From the NCBI GenBank assembly GCA_015487695.1, contig WFPF01000096.1, positions 1-48,907 of the forward strand: DNA of 48,907 bases. The letters run 5' to 3'. The DNA comes from Chitinophagales bacterium. Lineage in GTDB: Bacteria; Bacteroidota; Bacteroidia; Chitinophagales; S012-47. Under the pieces are notes generated by a model. It was not told the DNA's origin. It did no database searches and saw only the letters and a program-made list of their open reading frames with translations. Positions 15,073 to 32,152 of this stretch are shown piece by piece. The position numbers and the translations under genes were made by a program. How positions within the stretch are numbered: position 1 is the first letter of the stretch; every line of letters starts with the position of its first letter.

Positions 15073-16065
15073 ATGAAAAATAATATAATAATTCCGGCAT
15101 GTATCCTTTTCATTTTCCTGGCTGTGGCCTGCCAAAAAAGAGATCTGAGCAACAAGCCGGAAACTCTTCGCTATTACAGGCTTTTTGAAGGAGAATCCCC
15201 TTTTTATAATAAAATACCTGCACAGGCCGATGTAGATCCTGCCTCGGACCAAATGGTCAGAAGTCTGGTGGACCAGGCCAATGAAGCCTTTGTCGTGGCC
15301 GTGAAAAAATGGACGGTTCCGGTGTATTATGCCGATGCTTCCACACCCCGGAGAGAAGTGAAATTGACCGCTTCGTGGGCCCCGAAGAAAGCGATGCTTG
15401 ATGTGCCTGTCCCTGATTATGCCGAGGCCGACCCGTCAGATGACGGAAGCATGGTTGTGATCGATCAGGCAGGTGGCTGTATTTATGATTTTTGGCGAAT
15501 GCGCTACCGAAATGGCCGCTGGAAAGCCGCCTGGGGCAATGCCTTACCGCTGGACAGCGATGGCATATTTCCGCAGGGTTTCTCTGCACGGGGATCGGGT
15601 TTTGAACTGCTGCAGGGACTCATATGGCCCCATGAACTGAAGCAGGGACATATTGACCATGCCCTGATTTTTAGCTATGATCATACGCGTGCCGGTGGCC
15701 CAGTAGCTCCGGCAACGGAGAGTGACGGCACTTCAAATGAAGACTGGGCCATTCCGGAAGGGGCGCTTGTGCAATTGGACCCGGAGCTCAACCTTGACTC
15801 CCTGGGCCTCAGCGGCTATGAACGCATCATCGCCAAAGCACTGCAGGAATACGGAATGTATTGTGCGGATGACGGGGGTGGATTGCAGTTGTATGCCGTT
15901 AATCCCATTTGTGTAAAAAACAATCCTTATGAAAGCATCTGGGGCGATCAGACTTTGGTTTTTTTAGATAAAATACCGGCAGATCGGTTCAGAATACTAA
16001 AGCTGGGAAAGCAGAGTGAGAAAGCACTTGAACTTGTTTCAAATGCGTGTAATGAATTTCGTTGA
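15073..16065 (+). CDS. Lipoprotein of unknown function (conserved YDFW / PEGALVQLDPELN family)
   Basis: The 330-residue product begins with a hydrophobic signal ending FLAVAC, so Cys20 is probably lipidated. The mature part is a single globular domain with motifs that look strongly constrained: IYDFWRMRYRNGRWKAAWGN, SARGSGFELLQGLIWP, HIDHALIFSYDHTRAGGPV, PEGALVQLDPELNLD, IIAKALQEYGMYCADDGGG. From memory these resemble a secreted family common in actinobacteria, but I cannot name a domain or a function. The Asp, His and Tyr-rich motifs could form a carbohydrate site. It stands alone, with 236 nt upstream and 307 nt downstream that hold no gene. It is not obviously part of the electron-transfer cluster that follows. 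Confidence 0.6.
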   Translation: MKNNIIIPACILFIFLAVACQKRDLSNKPETLRYYRLFEGESPFYNKIPAQADVDPASDQMVRSLVDQANEAFVVAVKKWTVPVYYADASTPRREVKLTASWAPKKAMLDVPVPDYAEADPSDDGSMVVIDQAGGCIYDFWRMRYRNGRWKAAWGNALPLDSDGIFPQGFSARGSGFELLQGLIWPHELKQGHIDHALIFSYDHTRAGGPVAPATESDGTSNEDWAIPEGALVQLDPELNLDSLGLSGYERIIAKALQEYGMYCADDGGGLQLYAVNPICVKNNPYESIWGDQTLVFLDKIPADRFRILKLGKQSEKALELVSNACNEFR

Positions 16066-16372: not shown

Positions 16373-16780
16373 ATGAAATTAAAGCTATTCACCCTTGTGG
16401 CAGGGGTTTCTCTTGCCATAAGCGTCCTCGGATTTAGTTATTCAAAGCAAAACAATGAGTGGGTGGCTCCACCTTCAGCTGATGAGTTGAAGAATCCTTT
16501 CAAAGGAGACGAGGAAGCCACTGCTAAAGGAAAGAAACTCTACCTTAAACTTTGTGCCGTTTGTCATGGTAATAAGGGCAAAGGTGACGGAGTTGCAGGA
16601 GCTGCATTGAATCCGCAACCGGCCAATTTTACAAAAGAGAAAGTAAAGTCGCAGTCTGATGGAGCACTATACTGGAAAATTACGGAGGGTCGTCCGCCAA
16701 TGGCCTCATATAAAGAGACCCTAACGGATGAACAGCGTTGGCAGCTTGTCAACTATATACGTGAGCTGGAGAAAAAATAA
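16373..16780 (+). CDS. Exported class I c-type cytochrome
   Basis: The 135-residue product has an N-terminal signal/anchor (LKLFTLVAGVSLAISVLGFS) and one heme site, C61-A-V-C64-H65. Met110 in GRPPMASY is the expected sixth heme ligand, followed by the usual C-terminal helix LTDEQRWQLVNYIRELEKK. It is a small periplasmic electron carrier of the cytochrome c6/c551 or caa3-donor type. It is the first gene of the six-gene run, followed after 25 nt by a porin-like gene. It could carry electrons between the outer-membrane and copper-oxidase components and the membrane respiratory chain; that role is inference. Confidence 0.92.
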   Translation: MKLKLFTLVAGVSLAISVLGFSYSKQNNEWVAPPSADELKNPFKGDEEATAKGKKLYLKLCAVCHGNKGKGDGVAGAALNPQPANFTKEKVKSQSDGALYWKITEGRPPMASYKETLTDEQRWQLVNYIRELEKK

Positions 16781-16805
16781 ACATTCACCAATTAACTTTT
16801 AAATC

Positions 16806-17963
16806 ATGAAGATAATTACAACTGGAGGGCTCTTGCTTGCATTGTTTTTAGGGCAGGAGCTTTTTGGCCAGGCCTTTAAACCCAGCAAAACACAGTTTAT
16901 GATTCGTGGCTACGGGCACTCGGGGCTCAATTATGAACAGATTGATGATAACGATGCCGACTTATCATTTGTTGGGGCCACCTTCGCACCCATATTTCTT
17001 TTCAAGCATTCGGATCGCTTATTGTTTGAGGCAGAGCTTGAATTTGAATTGGAGGATGGGGAAGTCAAAGTTGGGTTTGAATATGCCGACTTCAATTATG
17101 TCCTAAATAAATACATTACGGTAAGGGCCGGTAAATTTTTGCTTCCGTTTGGCACTTTTGTTGAGCGTCTTCACCCGGCCTGGATCAACCGTCTTTCTAC
17201 CTTGCCTCTGGGATTTGGTCATGACGGGATTGCTCCCGGATCAGGAATCGGGGTTGAACTGCGCGGGGCTGCACCGGTCGGGAGTGGGAAAATCAATTAC
17301 TCCTTATATATGGTAAATGGACCGGTATTGGTGACTTCTGCCATGGACCCGGAAGAAGCCGGAATGCTTCGCTTTGAAAACTTTGAAGATAACAATGGCA
17401 ATAAGGCAGTAGGGGGTCGTCTGGGAATCTTACCCTTATCAAACTCATCGGTTGAGCTTGGGGTTTCATTTTACAACGGAATTGCAGGAGATGCCGGAGG
17501 GGAATATGAAAATGTGGCTGCCAGGCTCTACGCTTTTGACTTTTCTTATGTAAAGCAAATCAGTGCTATAAAAGGAATTTTGGATATAAAGGCCCAATAC
17601 ACGAAGTCCAATGTGGCCAATGCAAACTATTATGAACTGAGCCCCGGAGATACAATTCCTACATCATATACATTTACAAATAGCAGCAATGCCTATTTTG
17701 GGCAGCTAAGCTATCGTCCGTCCATGGCAAGCGGGTTTATTAAAAACATTGAGGTGGTTGGCCGATACTCTTCCCTCTCAACTCCTGAGGGGGCTGAATG
17801 GGAGCAAGAAGCCAGCCAGGTTGCATTCGGAGTGAATTACTGGCTGAGCTGGCGTTCCGTATTGAAGTTTAGCTATCAGGTAACGGAAAGTGTAGGAGGC
17901 CATGGTAATGCAGGCTCCAGTAGAAGAACGGGAATGTATGCCCATTGGGCATTGGGATTTTAA
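16806..17963 (+). CDS. Porin-like outer-membrane beta-barrel protein
   Basis: The 385-residue product has a signal peptide (MKIITTGGLLLALFLGQ...FGQ) followed by alternating beta strands of barrel type, ending in an aromatic residue (YAHWALGF). The block VRAGKFLLPFGTFVERLHPAWINRL is typical of phosphate-selective porin O/P-like barrels (the AGxxxxPFG signature). It has no heme site. It sits between two cytochrome c genes, with the next gene's ATG 15 nt after the stop. In porin-cytochrome systems a barrel of this kind surrounds a cytochrome and lets electrons cross the outer membrane. Here the cytochromes are small, so the analogy is suggestive only. It could equally be a channel for the substrate of the copper oxidase. 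Confidence 0.75.
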   Translation: MKIITTGGLLLALFLGQELFGQAFKPSKTQFMIRGYGHSGLNYEQIDDNDADLSFVGATFAPIFLFKHSDRLLFEAELEFELEDGEVKVGFEYADFNYVLNKYITVRAGKFLLPFGTFVERLHPAWINRLSTLPLGFGHDGIAPGSGIGVELRGAAPVGSGKINYSLYMVNGPVLVTSAMDPEEAGMLRFENFEDNNGNKAVGGRLGILPLSNSSVELGVSFYNGIAGDAGGEYENVAARLYAFDFSYVKQISAIKGILDIKAQYTKSNVANANYYELSPGDTIPTSYTFTNSSNAYFGQLSYRPSMASGFIKNIEVVGRYSSLSTPEGAEWEQEASQVAFGVNYWLSWRSVLKFSYQVTESVGGHGNAGSSRRTGMYAHWALGF

Positions 17964-17977
17964 AAAAAAATACTATT

Positions 17978-18247
17978 ATGAGTAAAGTAAGAATAATAAG
18001 CACCTTAACAGCCGTATTCCTATTTCTTGTTACATTGTACAGTTGTGAAGCTCAAAAAGCTGCAGCATCGCAAAAGACCGGAGCTCAACTCTGGGGTGAA
18101 AATTGCATCAGGTGTCACAATATCCCTTCCCCGGGAGATTATAATGATGTAGACTGGGAAACTATCGGGCTCCACATGAGAATTAGAGCAAATCTTACGG
18201 AAGATGAAATTGATAAGATTGTAGAGTTTATGAAAACTGTCAATTAG
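17978..18247 (+). CDS. Small cytochrome c lipoprotein
   Basis: The start at 17978 (MSKVRIIST) was preferred; an upstream in-frame ATG at 17945 lies inside the porin gene. The 89-residue product has a lipoprotein signal (TAVFLFLVTLYSC; lipidated Cys23) and one heme motif, C43-I-R-C46-H47. Met67 in GLHMRIRANLT is the likely distal ligand, and the final helix is LTEDEIDKIVEFMKTVN. At about 66 mature residues it is close to the minimum for a monoheme class I cytochrome. Lipidation would fix it to the inner or outer membrane facing the periplasm, next to the barrel protein encoded just upstream. Confidence 0.88.
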   Translation: MSKVRIISTLTAVFLFLVTLYSCEAQKAAASQKTGAQLWGENCIRCHNIPSPGDYNDVDWETIGLHMRIRANLTEDEIDKIVEFMKTVN

Positions 18248-18347
18248 CTTTCTCGGGTAAGCTGGTTTCTTTGTCATCTCAGGGGGGATTTGGATTAGGG
18301 ACTGATTGCAAGGTCGCGGAAAAAGTTTAACGAATAAAACAACCAGG

Positions 18348-19556
18348 ATGGAAAGAAAGGAATTTTTGAGATACAGTGCAATGGGAATAGCCGGATTGAC
18401 CATGTTCCCGGCCAATCTCTTTTCAAAAGAAAGCATTCAGAGCAACGGGAGACTTTTCCCGGAAAGCTTAGCATATACAATAGCCGGGGAATGGAAAGAA
18501 TTTGAGATTAGTGTGGGTATTGCAATTCAGGAACTGGCTCCTGCAATGGAGATTCACACGCTTGCCTTTAACGGAAAGGTCCCCGGGCCGGAGATTAGAG
18601 TGAAGTCAGGTGATAAGGTGAGGGTCATCTTTAAGAATGAGACTGAGTTGAACCATACCATACACTGGCATGGCATATACGTGCCCTGGCGCATGGATGG
18701 TGTCCCTTATGTTACGCAGATGCCGGTTATGCCCGGAAAAGAATTCATATATGAATTTATTGCCGAGCCGTATGGAACGCACTTCTACCATTGTCACTGG
18801 GGTACTTTGTTACACATGCAATCCGGAATGTTTGGCAGTGTAGTAATAGAGGATGACGATGATCCGATAAAGAAACAGTTTCCTTATGACAGGGAGTATA
18901 CCCTGATATACTCGGCCCATGATGTAAACTTCATACGTGAAGAACTTAACGGAATGATTGAGCGTATGAAAGAGCGCTCGTATCTGATGAAGAAGGGAAG
19001 GTTTGATCCCGAACGCTTCAATCTTTTTAATACGAAAGAAGAATTGCTGGCAGCCATCGAAAAGGGTTATCAGCCACCTTACCTTGTCAATCGCAGATCC
19101 AGTGCAGAACTGCCTGTGCCCAACTGGTTTACGGTCAATGGAAAGTCATACCCCTCAACACCAAATCTCTACATCAAAAGTGGTGAGAATATACGGGTTC
19201 GTCTGATCAATGCCGGAACAGAAAATCATCACCTTCATCTTCATGGTCATGACTTCTGGATGGTTTGTGATGATGGTGTGCCATTGCCTCAACCCTGGAA
19301 AAGAAATACCGTCTCTCTGAGCCCGGGAAAAACATATGACATTATTATTGAAGGCAATAATCGAGGTATTTGGACCTTCCATGATCATGATACGAGGCGA
19401 GTCACAAATAACGGACTTTACCCTGGCGGAAATTTACTTGCTCTGATCTACGAAGACTTGCCCGTGGAAGAGAGAATGGTATCGTCAACGGGTAGAATGA
19501 AAATGGGTAATGGGCAGTCCATGAATCTTCTGCCAAAAGTTGCTCTTGATGAATAA
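18348..19556 (+). CDS. Exported two-domain-type multicopper oxidase
   Basis: The start at 18348 gives MERKEFLRYSAMGIAGLTMF, an Arg-Lys variant of a Tat-type leader, which suits a folded copper protein. In the 402-residue product, the first cupredoxin domain carries HWHG (106-109) and H148-C149-H150...H156...M161, that is, type 2/3 His plus a complete type 1 set. The second domain carries HHLHLHGH (294-301) and H345-D346-H347, where three-domain laccases have HCH. The type 1 copper is therefore predicted in domain 1 only, the layout of type C two-domain oxidases. An unusual insert of about 80 residues (about 175-255) separates the domains. Possible substrates are metals (Fe, Mn, Cu), phenols or a partner cytochrome. 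Nitrite reductase is less likely because the trinuclear His set is kept. Confidence 0.88.
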   Translation: MERKEFLRYSAMGIAGLTMFPANLFSKESIQSNGRLFPESLAYTIAGEWKEFEISVGIAIQELAPAMEIHTLAFNGKVPGPEIRVKSGDKVRVIFKNETELNHTIHWHGIYVPWRMDGVPYVTQMPVMPGKEFIYEFIAEPYGTHFYHCHWGTLLHMQSGMFGSVVIEDDDDPIKKQFPYDREYTLIYSAHDVNFIREELNGMIERMKERSYLMKKGRFDPERFNLFNTKEELLAAIEKGYQPPYLVNRRSSAELPVPNWFTVNGKSYPSTPNLYIKSGENIRVRLINAGTENHHLHLHGHDFWMVCDDGVPLPQPWKRNTVSLSPGKTYDIIIEGNNRGIWTFHDHDTRRVTNNGLYPGGNLLALIYEDLPVEERMVSSTGRMKMGNGQSMNLLPKVALDE

Positions 19557-19568
19557 ATAAGTTAAATT

Positions 19569-20726
19569 ATGAAAAGATATTTAACGCTATTGGTAGCGGT
19601 ATTTTCGACTATTCTTTCTGTATCGCAGGTACTTCCGGAGATTGAACTGGGGGTAAAAGGAGTAGTTTCGGCTAACATTGGGGTCAACAATAACGGGGTG
19701 AGTTCGGCTGTGAGTGATTTCTCGGATAGTCAGATTCTTTTAGGATTCCGTCAGAAGCTATATAATAAGTGGCGAGGACAAATGGTCTTTGGAATGCAGT
19801 TCCCGGATGCCGACTCTGACTTGGGGCAGGTTTTCTATAATCACGTATTTATACAGGTGGAAGATCAAAAGAATATTATAAAGATTGGTAGGTCAACGAC
19901 CCGAACTATTCTGAATGAATTTCCTACATTGCGGGATGATGATGCAATGAACTTTAACTATTCGCTGAATCCCTTTTCCAAGGGAAGCAATACACAGGAT
20001 AATCAATATGGCAATGTCATTGAATATACGCACATATTTGCCCAACGCTACTGGCTTTCTTTTCATGGCGAAAACTTTAGCGACCTGTCAAAACCGGAGA
20101 ATTTTGAGCTAAACTCTTTTGGTTTTTCGCTTTTATATGTTGTACCGGAAAGTCAGCTATGGAACCGGGAAATATTGCAGCGACTCGGTTTTAGTTATAA
20201 TAGTTATGCAACGAATGAAGCCGGCTACGAGGGCTTTGACCGCTACCTGAAGAATATACTTGGAACAATTACTCTTAACGTGTTGCCGGACCCTGTACAC
20301 CTCATAGATTTTAAGGTGCAGGGGGTCTATAACATCGGATTTGCCCGGCTTGACAGTATCAAAAGCTATTCGGACTATGTTCGAACTCCCTCAATGGCAA
20401 CTTTTGCAACTCTGCGCTACTTGTATCGAAAACTCGAAAGACCTTTGCTCCAGGTTTCGGTCGGGTTTGGTTTGAAGAGTTTTGAACTGCTGCCAAAAAG
20501 TAAACAGGGAATTTTTATATCCAATGTCTTTTACCGTGTAGGTGAAAACTTTGATATTGGATTTCAGTACCGCTATTTACAGAATAACGGTGAGGTAGCT
20601 GATCTGTTTAGCAGTTCTGCTCACCGCTTCCAATTCGCTTTTGTTTACTCCATTAATCAGATATTCAATAAACACTTTGATGACAGAAACTCCATCCTTA
20701 ATCTGGAACATAACTATATAAATTAG
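19569..20726 (+). CDS. Outer-membrane beta-barrel protein (porin-like, unassigned)
   Basis: The 385-residue product has a signal peptide (MKRYLTLLVAVFSTILSVSQ) and a mature part built of alternating amphipathic strands with frequent Tyr and Phe, such as GFRQKLYNKWRGQMVFGMQF and FDIGFQYRYLQNNGEVADL, consistent with a barrel of about 16 strands. Segments like HVFIQVEDQKNIIKIGRSTT resemble the porin pattern in which a barrel-facing strand precedes a constriction loop. It does not visibly share the AGKFLLPFG block of the first barrel, so the two are not close duplicates. It starts 12 nt after the copper-oxidase stop, so co-transcription is very likely. Function unknown; an outer-membrane conduit or channel for the same pathway is the natural guess. 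Confidence 0.65.
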   Translation: MKRYLTLLVAVFSTILSVSQVLPEIELGVKGVVSANIGVNNNGVSSAVSDFSDSQILLGFRQKLYNKWRGQMVFGMQFPDADSDLGQVFYNHVFIQVEDQKNIIKIGRSTTRTILNEFPTLRDDDAMNFNYSLNPFSKGSNTQDNQYGNVIEYTHIFAQRYWLSFHGENFSDLSKPENFELNSFGFSLLYVVPESQLWNREILQRLGFSYNSYATNEAGYEGFDRYLKNILGTITLNVLPDPVHLIDFKVQGVYNIGFARLDSIKSYSDYVRTPSMATFATLRYLYRKLERPLLQVSVGFGLKSFELLPKSKQGIFISNVFYRVGENFDIGFQYRYLQNNGEVADLFSSSAHRFQFAFVYSINQIFNKHFDDRNSILNLEHNYIN

Positions 20727-20800
20727 CCGGTATTGATTGTTTGAAATTTATTGGATATGAACGACTTGTATTTATTCAATTCTTATTCTTAAAATAGTCG

Positions 20801-22135
20801 ATGAAACAATTGCGAAACATTAATTATTGCGATGATGCTAGTTGTGGTATCGGTGGTTCTGTCTGTCTGCCGAATAGTGATTATCCCAGAGTTCTCGTAA
20901 TTGGTGGTGGCTTTGCCGGGTTGGCACTGATAAAGGGCCTCAGAAAGCATAAGGTGCAGGTTGTACTTGTGGATCGCAATAACTTTCACCAGTTTCAGCC
21001 TTTACTCTATCAGGTGGCAACCAGTGGGCTGGAGCCTGACAGTATTGTGTTTCCATTCAGAAAACAGATTGCCGAATATGGCAATGTGGTTTATAGAATG
21101 GGTAGCGTCCTAAGTATAGTGCCGGAAGAGAACAAGGTGATTCTTGATAAGGGTGAGATTCATTATGATTACCTCGTTCTGGCTACGGGTACCTCTACCA
21201 ACTTCTTCGGTCTGGAAAATATTGAAAAAAGAAGTCTGGGATTAAAGGATATTCGTGATGCCCTGAACATACGCCATAAGATGCTCCAGAATCTTGAGAA
21301 AGCGGCCATTACCTGTAACATGGAGGAAAAGGATGCCCTCACGAACTTCGTTATTGTAGGAGGTGGTCCGGCAGGTGTGGAGATGGCCGGTGCCCTCGCT
21401 GAATTTTGTCACTACATCCTGCCGAAGGATTACCCGGAGTATCCCACTGAGATAATGAAGATTTACCTGATTGAAGCCTCCGGCAGACTTCTTTCGGCCA
21501 TGTCCGAGAAGGCATCGGCCAAAACACTTCGTTATCTCCGGGGACTGAATGTTTCGGTTCTTCTGAATGAAGTTGTGGTAGACTATAACGGGGAAGTGGT
21601 AAAGACAAAGAGTGGCAAAGTTATTAATGCCCGAAATCTGATCTGGACAGCCGGGGTGAAAGGACAGTTGCCAGAAGGTATTGGCAGCGAGTTTCTCGTC
21701 AGAGGAAACAGGATACGGGTAGATGAAAACCTGAAGGTTGTTGGGCTGGATAATGTCTTTGCTTTGGGCGATATTGCTGCCATGATTACAGAAAGGACAC
21801 CGGGCGGGCACCCCCAGGTCGCTCAACCCGCTATTCAGCAGGGGAAATATCTGGCAAGGGCTATCCCGAGTATTATAAATAACCGCCCCAATAAACCTTT
21901 TGTTTATAAAGACAAGGGCTCTCTTGCCACTGTTGGGAAAAGAAAAGCTGTAGCCGATCTTGGTAAACTGAAGTTTGCCGGTTTTGGCGCTTGGTTGCTT
22001 TGGTCTTTGGTACACATTATGTCTATCAGCGGATTTCGAAATAAATTGCTTGTTGGTATCAATTGGGCACTAAGTTATTTTAGCTATGAAAAAAGCAACC
22101 GGATTATCATACGTAGTTATAAAGATGAGAAGTAG
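20801..22135 (+). CDS. Type II NADH dehydrogenase-like FAD/NAD(P)-dependent oxidoreductase
   Basis: The 444-residue product has the NDH-2 layout: FAD-binding VLVIGGGFAGL at about 32, the DRNNFHQFQPLLYQVATSGL block, NAD-binding VIVGGGPAGVEMAGALAEF in the middle, and NVFALGDIAAM near residue 320. A C-terminal amphipathic/hydrophobic part (LWSLVHIMSISGFRNKLLV) probably attaches it to the inner face of the cytoplasmic membrane. NDH-2 oxidises NADH and reduces quinone without pumping protons. Oddly, about 28 residues with three cysteines (C10, C15, C22) precede the FAD motif. Last gene of the cluster, 74 nt after the barrel gene. Depending on redox direction it could feed quinone, or act as another flavin reductase such as a sulfide:quinone-type enzyme. 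Confidence 0.87.
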   Translation: MKQLRNINYCDDASCGIGGSVCLPNSDYPRVLVIGGGFAGLALIKGLRKHKVQVVLVDRNNFHQFQPLLYQVATSGLEPDSIVFPFRKQIAEYGNVVYRMGSVLSIVPEENKVILDKGEIHYDYLVLATGTSTNFFGLENIEKRSLGLKDIRDALNIRHKMLQNLEKAAITCNMEEKDALTNFVIVGGGPAGVEMAGALAEFCHYILPKDYPEYPTEIMKIYLIEASGRLLSAMSEKASAKTLRYLRGLNVSVLLNEVVVDYNGEVVKTKSGKVINARNLIWTAGVKGQLPEGIGSEFLVRGNRIRVDENLKVVGLDNVFALGDIAAMITERTPGGHPQVAQPAIQQGKYLARAIPSIINNRPNKPFVYKDKGSLATVGKRKAVADLGKLKFAGFGAWLLWSLVHIMSISGFRNKLLVGINWALSYFSYEKSNRIIIRSYKDEK

Positions 22136-24114: not shown

Positions 24115-24828
24115 TCAGGCAGCCATTTCCCTGAGTTTCTCAAAGAGAATATTGTTTTCAAGGTGGATGTGCTGAAAGAGGTCATCCTCAAACTCTTCCA
24201 GTTTAAAATAGAGCGCCTTATAGGTATTGCAGGCATGGCCGGGCGGGGTAAACTGGTGAGAGAGATCGCGAATCTCTTTGATAATGTCTCCTACACGTTC
24301 ATGCTCTGCCTCCATCACCGGTACGGGCCCGTGAAGAATCAAATGCAGCGTTTCGGCATCTACTTCGCGCTGCTCGCTGAGTTTCTTGATCATCGGAAAA
24401 AGAATCTCCTCTTCCTTGCGCATATGCATTTCGAGGTCGGTTGCCATTTCTTCTACCCGTTGCTGTATTTGGATGAGTTCCGGATCGGCATGGCCGTGTA
24501 CTTTGGCCACTTTGGCCGAAAATTGCTTCAGTATGGGCAGGTTCTCGCGCACATAGTTATGATGTACTTCCAGAATGTAATCTACCAGAAGGTGCACGGG
24601 CCAGGACTTAAACCGGACGGGCCGGCCACCTGATCGGGATTTTTCCGACTCCAGGTCGCGAATCAGAGCCTCCATGTCTATCCCTTTTTTCATGCAGGCC
24701 TCTTCGATGCTGCGGCCGCCACCACAACAAAAGTCCAGTCCGTACTTCTTAAAGATGCCGGCTTTTGAAATATCTTCCGTTACAATTTCGGCTATCGTAC
24801 GATGCGCGTAGAGTTCTTTCTTGTCCAT
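24115..24828 (-). CDS. ric: Iron-sulfur cluster repair di-iron protein (RIC/ScdA/YtfE family)
   Basis: The start at 24828 (MDKKELYAHRT) places the family motif near the N-terminus. The N-terminal DUF542 domain carries the paired cysteines C34-C35 in LDFCCGGGRS. The following hemerythrin-like domain supplies His and Glu ligands for two irons in DYILEVHHNYVRENL, KVHGHADPE, MHMRKEEEILFP, AEHERVGDII and HIHLENNILFEKL. RIC proteins repair iron-sulfur clusters damaged by nitric oxide or peroxide and are usually induced by those agents. The full set is present over 237 residues, so it is probably active. It stands alone, but between two respiratory loci. Confidence 0.95.
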   Translation of the reverse strand: MDKKELYAHRTIAEIVTEDISKAGIFKKYGLDFCCGGGRSIEEACMKKGIDMEALIRDLESEKSRSGGRPVRFKSWPVHLLVDYILEVHHNYVRENLPILKQFSAKVAKVHGHADPELIQIQQRVEEMATDLEMHMRKEEEILFPMIKKLSEQREVDAETLHLILHGPVPVMEAEHERVGDIIKEIRDLSHQFTPPGHACNTYKALYFKLEEFEDDLFQHIHLENNILFEKLREMAA

Positions 24829-24936
24829 GTTGCAAAAATAAGGCGGCAATGAGGCCAATGTCCATGACTTTCCTCATCGTTATGAAGAAAAATGCGTTTC
24901 AGCGATTGAAGCAATTTTATGTCAGGCCCGGAAATT

Positions 24937-29362: not shown

Positions 29363-29800
29363 ATGGATAGAGCTGAAAAATTTATCATCTCTTTTTCGAT
29401 TGTTGTGCTGGTGCTTTTTGTAACAGGCATCATTATCGTAGCCAAAGGTGCGGGCATAGATATTGCCGAATGTGTACCCTCGGATAAAACCTTTACCGAA
29501 GGAAGGCTCGGACAGCTTGATGAGCACACCTATCAGGCCTATTATGTGGCAAAAATGTGGGCCTTCGAACCCCGTGAGATTGAAATACCGCTGGAAAGCG
29601 AGCTGGATATTTTCCTCACATCAAAGGATGTCGTTCACGGTTTTCATATCAACGAAAAGGCGGTCAATCTGATGGCCGTACCGGGAACGATCAATAAGTA
29701 CCGTGTGAAGTTTTCGAAAAAAGGCACTTACGAAATCGTCTGCCACGAGTTTTGCGGCACGGGACATCAAAATATGGTAGGAAAAATCATTGTCAAATAA
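29363..29800 (+). CDS. Cytochrome c oxidase subunit II, ba3-type (CuA-binding)
   Basis: The 145-residue product has a single N-terminal membrane helix (about 7-28) and a cupredoxin domain facing the periplasm. The dinuclear CuA ligands are complete: H92 in VVHGFH, and C127, E129, C131, H135 and M138 in CHEFCGTGHQNM. One span instead of two, and the short length, are typical of ba3/type B oxidases. It takes electrons from cytochrome c and passes them to subunit I. It lies 17 nt before the subunit I gene in the same operon. Confidence 0.95.
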   Translation: MDRAEKFIISFSIVVLVLFVTGIIIVAKGAGIDIAECVPSDKTFTEGRLGQLDEHTYQAYYVAKMWAFEPREIEIPLESELDIFLTSKDVVHGFHINEKAVNLMAVPGTINKYRVKFSKKGTYEIVCHEFCGTGHQNMVGKIIVK

Positions 29801-29817
29801 TTTAATTCTCGATAACT

Positions 29818-31491
29818 ATGGAGTTTTCTAAAAGTTTAAAAAGAGTATTGTTACTGGAGTTGCTCATTCCCATGCTGCTTTTGGTGCTGGGCGTTTATTT
29901 AGGGCTGATACAGGTTTTGTCACGGGCCGGTGTCATTCGTGGCGATTCCATCTGGTCATTGAAATATTTTGAAGGACTGACCCTGCACGGAGTGGTCAAT
30001 GCCATAGTCGTAACGACCTTCTTTGCCGTAGCCTTTGGCAATGCCGTGATGGTCTATTATCTGAAGAACAAAATCAACATGACCTGGGTATGGGTTTCCT
30101 TTTGGGTGATGATGATCGGCACATTGCTGGCTGCCTGGGCCATCATGTCGGGAAATGCGACTGTCTTGTATACATTCTATGCTCCGCTGAAGGCACATCC
30201 GCTCTTTTACATCGGTGTGGCGCTGTTGGTCGTGGGCAGCTGGATTGCTTTTTTCAATTGGATACCCATGTATCTGCGATTTCGCAAAGAGCATCCCGAG
30301 AAGAAAACTCCGATTGCCGTAGTCGGAACCCTTGCCAACTTTGTCATCTGGTTCATTGCCACGGTTCCGGTAGCTTATGAGGTTTTGGTCATTCTTCTGC
30401 CATGGTCGCTGGGCTATGTGAGCGAGATCAATGTCATGCTCACCAGGGTTCTCTTCTGGTTTTTTGGCCATCCGCTGGTCTATTTCTGGCTCTTGCCGGC
30501 CTACATCATGTATTATGCATTCCTTCCCAAACTGGTAGGCTCGAAGATCTATTCCGACTTTGCCGCCCGTCTGGTTTTCTTCCTCTTTCTCATCTTTTCC
30601 ATTCCGGTAGGGCTGCATCACCAATTTGCCGAACCATCCATCAATCCGAACCTGAAGCTGCTGCATGCCGTATTTACCTTTGGTGTGGCACTGCCCAGTT
30701 TGATTACCGCCTTTTCCATTGCGGCCAGCCTCGAAATGGGTGCGCATCTGCGTGGCCACAAGGGCCTCATGTCCTGGGTTTATCGCCAGCCTTTCTTTGA
30801 CAAGAACAATTACCTCTTTGCTTATCTCATTGTAGGGCTTCTGATCTTTATCGTTGGGGGAGCGACAGGGATACTCAATGCCTCGTACAGCATGAACAAC
30901 CTCGTTCATAATACCGGCTTCCTTCCGGGCCACTTCCACCTGACGGTGGCCGGGCCTGTGATACTTGCCATTTTCGGAATGACCGTCTATATGTACAGCA
31001 ATCTCACCGGCAAAGAGGTGAAGCTGAAATCACTCAACGTGGCAGTACCCTATATCTGGGCACTCGGGCTTACTTTCTTTTCGAGCGGGCTCATGGTAGG
31101 CGGACTGCTGGGTGAGCCGCGAAGAACGAATCTGGGCATTTCCTACACCAACCCCGATTCGCCTCTCTTTCACAGCGACTGGCAGATCACAACGGCCATC
31201 ACGGCCATAGGTGGTACGATCATGTTTATCGCAGCTCTCAGTTATTTTACGGTGCTGATTGCTACCATGGCTTCCAAATCCAAAGGCTCGGTGGCATTTA
31301 GCTTCCCGACATCCGAAGCTTATCATGACGAGAAAAATATCAGCCTTGTGAAAAACTTTGCACCATGGATTCTGGTAGCGGTGGTGATCATTCTGATCGC
31401 TTATGTACCTACCATCAAGGAAGCATTGGAAAATACGGCCGGTGGCGCACTGCCTTACCTGCCCACAAATCCGGTACCTATAACACCTTAA
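29818..31491 (+). CDS. Cytochrome c oxidase subunit I, ba3-type (type B heme-copper oxidase)
   Basis: The 557-residue inner-membrane protein reduces O2 to water and pumps protons. Ligands are visible: H57 (LTLHGVV) and H374 for the low-spin heme, H372 (LPGHFHLT) for the high-spin heme, and H218 with H267-H268 for CuB. Y222 in GHPLVYFW would form the His-Tyr crosslink. It lacks the D-channel motifs of type A oxidases, and with the short subunit II and IIa genes upstream it fits the type B (ba3) group, which favours low oxygen and high affinity. It is followed 1 nt after its stop by the Sco gene, so copper delivery is encoded in the same operon. Confidence 0.96.
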   Translation: MEFSKSLKRVLLLELLIPMLLLVLGVYLGLIQVLSRAGVIRGDSIWSLKYFEGLTLHGVVNAIVVTTFFAVAFGNAVMVYYLKNKINMTWVWVSFWVMMIGTLLAAWAIMSGNATVLYTFYAPLKAHPLFYIGVALLVVGSWIAFFNWIPMYLRFRKEHPEKKTPIAVVGTLANFVIWFIATVPVAYEVLVILLPWSLGYVSEINVMLTRVLFWFFGHPLVYFWLLPAYIMYYAFLPKLVGSKIYSDFAARLVFFLFLIFSIPVGLHHQFAEPSINPNLKLLHAVFTFGVALPSLITAFSIAASLEMGAHLRGHKGLMSWVYRQPFFDKNNYLFAYLIVGLLIFIVGGATGILNASYSMNNLVHNTGFLPGHFHLTVAGPVILAIFGMTVYMYSNLTGKEVKLKSLNVAVPYIWALGLTFFSSGLMVGGLLGEPRRTNLGISYTNPDSPLFHSDWQITTAITAIGGTIMFIAALSYFTVLIATMASKSKGSVAFSFPTSEAYHDEKNISLVKNFAPWILVAVVIILIAYVPTIKEALENTAGGALPYLPTNPVPITP

Positions 31492-31492
31492 A

Positions 31493-32152
31493 ATGATGAA
31501 CAAAGAGCAACGGAATCAGCTTCTTTTTGTGCTTATCATAATTGCGGTTCCTTTTGCGATCTATTACATGCTGGCTCAATCCAATTTCGGAACCCGGCTT
31601 AAAGTTTTTGGACCGGATACGGTAAATGAAAAAGGGGAAACGGTGGCTCATACCGTAGCCCCTTTCTCATTTGTTAATCAGCTGGGCGATACGATCACCC
31701 AGGAAGACGTAAAGGACAAAATATACATTGCCAATTTTTTCTTTGCATCCTGTCCTACCGTATGTCCTAAAATGCTGACCCAGGTGATGCGTGTGCAGGA
31801 GGAGTTTAAAGACAACGATCATTTCCTCATTTTGTCGCATACGGTGGATCCCCGGCATGACTCCGTGTCTGTGTTAAGGCGTTACAGCCATATCTACAAT
31901 GCAGATTCGAGCAAGTGGTATTTTCTCACCGGGGAGAGGAAGAAACTCTATCTGGCGGCCCGCAACAGCTATCTCACCGACAACTTGGAAGGTGATGGCG
32001 GACCCACGGATTTCATTCACAGCCAGTATATTCTTCTGGTTGACCCCGAGCGGCATATCCGGGGTTTTTATGAGGGTACCGATCCGGACGATATCGACCG
32101 CCTCATAGAGGAGACCCATGAGCTGATGAAAGAGTTTGGCTACGAGGAATAG
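31493..32152 (+). CDS. SCO1/SenC-family copper chaperone for the oxidase
   Basis: The 219-residue product has one N-terminal membrane anchor (about 9-28) and a periplasmic thioredoxin-like fold. The copper site is complete: C87-P-T-V-C91-P and H176 in DFIHSQYILLVDPE. Sco proteins deliver Cu to, or reduce, the CuA site of subunit II. Two adjacent ATGs (31493, 31496) are possible starts. It directly follows the subunit I stop and is the last gene of the oxidase operon; the next gene is 63 nt away and unrelated. Confidence 0.94.
   Translation: MMNKEQRNQLLFVLIIIAVPFAIYYMLAQSNFGTRLKVFGPDTVNEKGETVAHTVAPFSFVNQLGDTITQEDVKDKIYIANFFFASCPTVCPKMLTQVMRVQEEFKDNDHFLILSHTVDPRHDSVSVLRRYSHIYNADSSKWYFLTGERKKLYLAARNSYLTDNLEGDGGPTDFIHSQYILLVDPERHIRGFYEGTDPDDIDRLIEETHELMKEFGYEE

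Follow-up and report, generated by a model that had tools for sequence, protein, structure and literature searches.

A two-domain multicopper oxidase and its porin partner as a probable PcoAB-like copper-tolerance pair with non-homologous parts

A two-domain multicopper oxidase (MCO) and the outer-membrane porin encoded immediately after it (porB) most likely represent a novel version of PcoAB that belongs to neither the PcoA nor the PcoB family. Periplasmic Cu(I) would be oxidised by the MCO with the help of its dedicated porin, so that the two would confer copper tolerance as PcoAB does but with non-homologous proteins, a reading that can be given a probability of about 0.7. The pair was analysed in a Chitinophagales bacterium, within a window of 48,907 nucleotides (the whole stretch of DNA examined), which is contig C96 of a 2.77 Mb genome, G000. 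The cluster to which it belongs (Table 1) consists of three separable blocks, i.e. the MCO-porB core, a cytA-porA-cytB triad and an optional NDH-2 flank, and does not constitute a single conserved electron-transfer unit.

Table 1. Features of the cluster; positions are those of the window.
Feature	Position	Strand	Description
cytA	16373..16780	+	Exported one-heme cytochrome c, 135 aa; Pfam Cytochrom_C 1.1e-13; single CAVCH; opens the cytA-porA-cytB triad
porA	16806..17963	+	Porin of ~16 strands, OmpT/PorB/OprP-like fold, 385 aa; AlphaFold pLDDT 84.4
cytB	17978..18247	+	Lipoprotein one-heme cytochrome c, 89 aa, ATG start at 17978; lipobox LYSC; CIRCH; Pfam Cytochrom_C 3.4e-5
MCO	18348..19556	+	Two-domain multicopper oxidase; Pfam Cu-oxidase_3 and Cu-oxidase_2
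porB	19569..20726	+	Porin, 17 predicted strands, OmpF-class fold; AlphaFold pLDDT 87.7; constant MCO partner
porB C-terminal extension	20655..20723	+	Residues 363-385, NQIFNKHFDDRNSILNLEHNYIN; candidate periplasmic docking tail
NDH-2	20801..22135	+	NADH:quinone dehydrogenase; Pyr_redox_2 (PF07992) 1.5e-48, 166 bits; NDH2_C (PF22366) 7.8e-10, 39 bits

Pfam, sequence and AlphaFold data agree with the sequence-only reading on the content of the cluster: six same-strand genes, separated by 25, 14, 100, 12 and 74 nt, encode two cytochromes c with a single CxxCH motif each, two porins, a two-domain MCO and an NDH-2. When the same order was sought in other genomes, it was found in compact form in G003, a Chitinophagales MAG of the same genus (L010), and also in five Flavobacteriaceae (L060, L067, L072, L077 and L083), where it is kept but interrupted by further genes, most of them related to copper. 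This recurrence indicates that the six-gene order is not due to chance. The proposal that the six genes form one unit is nevertheless weak, as the triad and MCO-porB each occur alone. Between positions 16000 and 22400, sigma-70 sites are no commoner than in shuffles and terminator-like sites (11 versus 5.7 +/- 3.0) lie mostly within genes, so neither scan helps to define an operon.

On domain and type-1 (T1) ligand criteria, the MCO is assigned to the type C two-domain multicopper oxidases, whose defining pattern places the T1 ligands in domain 1 (PMC13151041). The T1 ligands Cys149, His156 and Met161 are found in domain 1 only, domain 2 having HDH instead of HCH, and the copper ligands (H103, H106, H108, H148, C149, H150, H156, M161, H297, H299, H345 and H347) are invariant in all 74 homologues compared. 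The closest solved structures are 2zwn, then 3g5w. The protein is not a member of the CopA/PcoA family, as its score against the model TIGR01480 (132 bits) is far under the cut-off of 479. It has a Tat-like signal, with RK-x-F in the window and RR in 63 of the 74 homologues. Its C-terminus comprises a variable Met-rich stretch followed by a conserved LPKVALDE, and methionine makes up 12% of the last 45 residues versus 4.7% overall, as expected of a copper-handling oxidase. A second multicopper oxidase of G000 (L152:3835-5616, on C25) carries a C-terminal tail like a type IX secretion sorting domain and is likely a secreted laccase.

MCO-porB is the conserved core of the cluster. A scan of one genome per species (~85,000 species) yielded 80 MCO loci that were kept, with a best-segment identity of 62-90%. 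A porB gene lies 3' of the MCO gene in every locus with room to show it (77/77), mostly directly, the exceptions being two loci with two small genes in between. Furthermore, the MCO and porB distance matrices are correlated (r 0.83), a value that none of 2000 permutations reached. The 80 loci span ~12 phylum labels, including Bacteroidota, Chlorobiota, Calditrichota, Zixiibacteriota, Marinimicrobia, KSB1, Nitrospirota and Krumholzibacteriota; the titles of many of the assemblies suggest hydrothermal vents, and marine bacteria are also among the carriers. The MCO is rare in the phylum of the window (3 of 395 sampled genomes, window included) and in its order (2 of 398). Its tree shows 22 changes of phylum label versus a minimum of 11, which fits lateral movement, although some bins may be mislabelled. 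The MCO proteins of L027 and L028, from bins labelled Bacteroidetes and KSB1 respectively, are identical, by transfer or by binning error. The viral contigs searched hold no relative of the MCO, and the plasmids searched only distant MCOs from Paenibacillus (31% identity). In a literature search of titles and abstracts, with subscription papers outside its scope, no description of a Bacteroidota, flavobacterial or vent version of the pair was found.

Neither porA nor porB has a match in Pfam, but their AlphaFold models are porin barrels of ~16-17 strands of the OmpF/OmpT/OprP sort, in agreement with Foldseek, whose best matches for porA are OmpT, PorB and OprP. Against solved chains, the sequence profile of porA gives a marginal match to Porin O and that of porB gives none, although PcoB (7pge) was among the chains searched. 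PcoB is also absent from the best 50 matches listed in the VIA structural comparison of porB, which is no evidence either way, and the lack of a PF05275 match places porB outside the CopB family. The alignment of porB with Omp35 (VIA Z 24.9) stops at residue 362. The 23 residues beyond it close with ILNLEHNYIN, this last 10-residue block being the most conserved of the protein, and residues 371-385 rank 4th in conservation among 371 stretches of 15 residues. The C-terminal end of known porins faces the periplasm. The tail of porB and the C-terminal end of the MCO may thus serve docking or copper transfer. Both families, two-domain MCOs and OmpF-class porins, form trimers, so that a symmetric assembly of the two is conceivable.

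In relatives, the surroundings of the pair point to copper. Strict copper markers (P1B-ATPase, CusA, HMA chaperone) are present in 22 of the 32 MCO loci of at least 18 kb versus 2 of 20 control stretches, a difference whose Fisher p-value of 3e-5 is only indicative, since the controls were 20 arbitrary 20-kb stretches, all from Bacteroidota, the loci are related and MCO loci served to construct the marker profiles. About one third of the long MCO-porB loci are devoid of any copper marker. In flavobacterial loci, the genes between and around those of the cluster encode an AraC-type regulator with an HMA-like N-terminus, an HMA chaperone, a Met-rich lipoprotein, and SHOCT, DUF5676, YHS and Usp proteins. 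Other MCO-porB loci include CusABC with a P-II protein, P1B-ATPases and DUF302 genes, and DUF3347 genes are likewise among the copper-context neighbours. In the window itself, no copper gene adjoins the cluster; the Cu-ATPases of the host are encoded on other contigs, one of which (C43) carries a Cu-ATPase gene with HMA-AraC and HMA genes.

That MCO-porB fulfils the function of PcoA-PcoB is argued most strongly by genomes in which CopA-CopB occupies its slot after the triad. In G646, G780 and G774, one or two small lipoprotein genes come after the triad, and next to them lie genes encoding a CopA of ~600 aa and a CopB (PF05275, E ~1e-76), a replacement seen in three genomes of one order that perhaps reflects one or two events. 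CopB was not found in G000, in G003 or in any of the 80 MCO-porB loci. A three-domain CopA-like MCO is encoded in a few of these loci (L046, L049 and L059), indicating that the two kinds of oxidases can coexist.

The triad is an independent module that is also found without the MCO. The porA profile found matches in 12 of the 385 genomes searched within the phylum. All nine loci inspected over their whole length (L102-L110) show the order cytA-porA-cytB, and most of them have no MCO in the vicinity; conversely, cytA is present in 10 of the 80 MCO loci. Among cultured flavobacteria, Flagellimonas pacifica and Maribacter sp. PR1 carry the triad as well as MCO-porB, and Leeuwenhoekiella marinoflava and Dokdonia pacifica MCO-porB only. 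The cytB homologues have GAQLWGENCxRCHxxPSP in common. In G737 (L111:4777-7654), a plastocyanin/azurin-like gene precedes porA-cytB in the place of cytA, which suggests that cytA is an exchangeable electron carrier. About 7 kb downstream of the cluster (29363-32152), ba3-type cytochrome oxidase-like subunits and a SCO protein are encoded, as judged from their sequences, and this oxidase might act as an electron sink for cytA.

The NDH-2 has both the Pyr_redox_2 fold and the C-terminal NDH2 domain expected of this family, and homologues occur in 18 of the 80 MCO loci. As a second NDH-2 gene is located elsewhere in G000, that of the cluster is not the sole NADH dehydrogenase of this genome; complex I was found neither in G000 nor in G003. 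The cluster NDH-2 is best read as an optional, Fe-S-free accessory dehydrogenase. It bears an N-terminal Cys-containing extension (20801-20870), as do most island NDH-2s (Cys-x6-Cys, ...ICLP), and this extension is a possible metal site. In flavobacterial MCO-porB islands, NDH-2 is followed by a GAPDH-like gene (13 loci) and by a DeoC/LacD-type aldolase gene (10 loci), as exemplified by L062:17751-18764 and L060:18317-19378; like the Fe-S-free NDH-2, their products could be copper-proof backups, here of glycolytic enzymes. On the minus strand, 2 kb downstream of the cluster (24115-24858), lies a gene for a RIC-type (YtfE/ScdA) iron-sulfur cluster repair protein (TIGR03652, 256 bits).

The working proposed for MCO-porB is drawn by analogy with PcoA-PcoB from Caulobacter, a two-gene system shown to provide copper oxidation and efflux: PcoA oxidises Cu(I), and the PcoB barrel takes part in copper efflux and has a disordered N-terminal region by which PcoA is stabilised (PMC12509749). 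A role of PcoB in copper uptake has also been put forward (PMC9210255). For MCO-porB, we infer the substrate Cu(I), the docking of the two proteins and the direction of copper movement, and the following model can be drawn. The exported MCO, trimeric in its solved relatives, would oxidise periplasmic Cu(I) to Cu(II) with O2 as the acceptor. PorB would offer a copper route across the outer membrane, by which Cu(II) would be carried or received, and would probably hold the MCO via its conserved C-terminal tail. The cytA-porA-cytB triad would act as a second, separable envelope module, with electron carriers beside a porin, working alongside copper oxidases of either kind. The comparative evidence predicts that an MCO mutant would have a copper-tolerance defect only.

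The sequence-only reading had considered extracytoplasmic electron transfer or metal oxidation. The corresponding scenario, in which the MCO and the cytochromes would oxidise Fe(II) or Mn(II), or export electrons, as an energy-conserving conduit through the porins, appears unlikely. Porin-MCO pairs were raised as possible Fe(II)-oxidising conduits by He et al., and PcoA-type oxidases can indeed oxidise Fe(II) too, but the same work assigns those pairs to PcoAB (PMC5566968). Many relatives have names suggestive of vents, which are rich in Fe(II) and Mn(II). Against such a conduit, both cytochromes have a single heme, the general-porin barrels stay at ~16-17 strands in the models when the criterion for porin-cytochrome conduits is at least 20, and MCO-porB mostly occurs without cytochromes or NDH-2 and with copper efflux genes as neighbours. 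Extracellular electron transfer is thus not supported. Metal oxidation in the envelope is, but in a narrow sense, in which a copper oxidase like PcoA would act together with its outer-membrane barrel.

A more ambitious version of copper oxidation would merge MCO-porB and the triad in one machine, with a trimeric MCO docked symmetrically on a trimeric porin. The cytochromes would also pass electrons from Cu(I) on to a terminal oxidase and copper detoxification would thereby feed respiration; this is very unlikely. Very unlikely too is an ordinary laccase that would oxidise phenolics, with porB importing or exporting an organic substrate: the best solved match, 2zwn, bears the name of two-domain type laccase, but the MCO is surrounded by copper islands and has a Met-rich tail, and aromatic degradation genes are not among its recurrent neighbours. 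Protection against nitrogen oxides, with the MCO and cytochromes c handling nitrite or NO as in Nitrosomonas, is likewise very improbable. It would agree with the second-closest solved relative, 3g5w, a protein of N. europaea, and with the RIC gene located downstream; however, the MCO scores 82.6 bits against the NirK model TIGR02376, far under the cut-off of 296, its recurrent neighbours include no nitrogen-oxide genes, and the reading was rejected because the cluster has no nirK. Finally, a chance stack of three unrelated modules with no shared role deserves equally little credit, as every block is found without the others but the same order recurs in the five Flavobacteriaceae and the sister genome, and the triad also lies 5' of CopA-CopB.

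If MCO-porB is indeed a copper-tolerance pair of the PcoAB kind, the oxidase-plus-barrel answer to periplasmic copper would have arisen at least twice from unrelated parts, and its second version would span ~12 phylum labels and many genomes with vent-suggesting names. The pair would also serve as a clear point of comparison in working out how copper is moved by PcoB-type barrels, a problem still to be solved, and the conserved tail of porB is a directly testable candidate docking site.

Several known systems share parts of this organisation. The porin-cytochrome conduits MtrAB, MtoAB and PCC3 also have a porin gene beside cytochrome genes; unlike them, the window encodes only one heme per cytochrome and no multiheme electron partner in the block. 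The ncgABC-nirK operon of Nitrosomonas contains, as the window does, a two-domain MCO with cytochromes c, but the cluster has no nirK and instead has outer-membrane porins, joined in relatives by copper genes. The type C oxidases 2zwn and 3g5w have the same two cupredoxin domains, T1 likewise lying in domain 1 and the trinuclear ligands being HxH and HDH; unlike them, the window MCO has a longer inter-domain stretch (~65 residues unaligned to 2zwn), a Met-rich variable C-terminus closing in LPKVALDE and a constant porin partner. Compared with PcoA-PcoB and CopA-CopB, the window MCO is two-domain, with T1 in domain 1, and falls outside the CopA family, whereas the barrel of PcoB has 12 strands and its disordered tail is N-terminal (PMC12509749) and porB has 17 predicted strands, no PF05275 domain and a conserved tail that is C-terminal. 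What MCO-porB shares with these systems is a Tat-type periplasmic MCO encoded directly before an outer-membrane barrel (with a gap of 12 nt in the window), copper-gene surroundings in relatives, if not in the window, and, in three genomes, the same place after cytA-porA-cytB.
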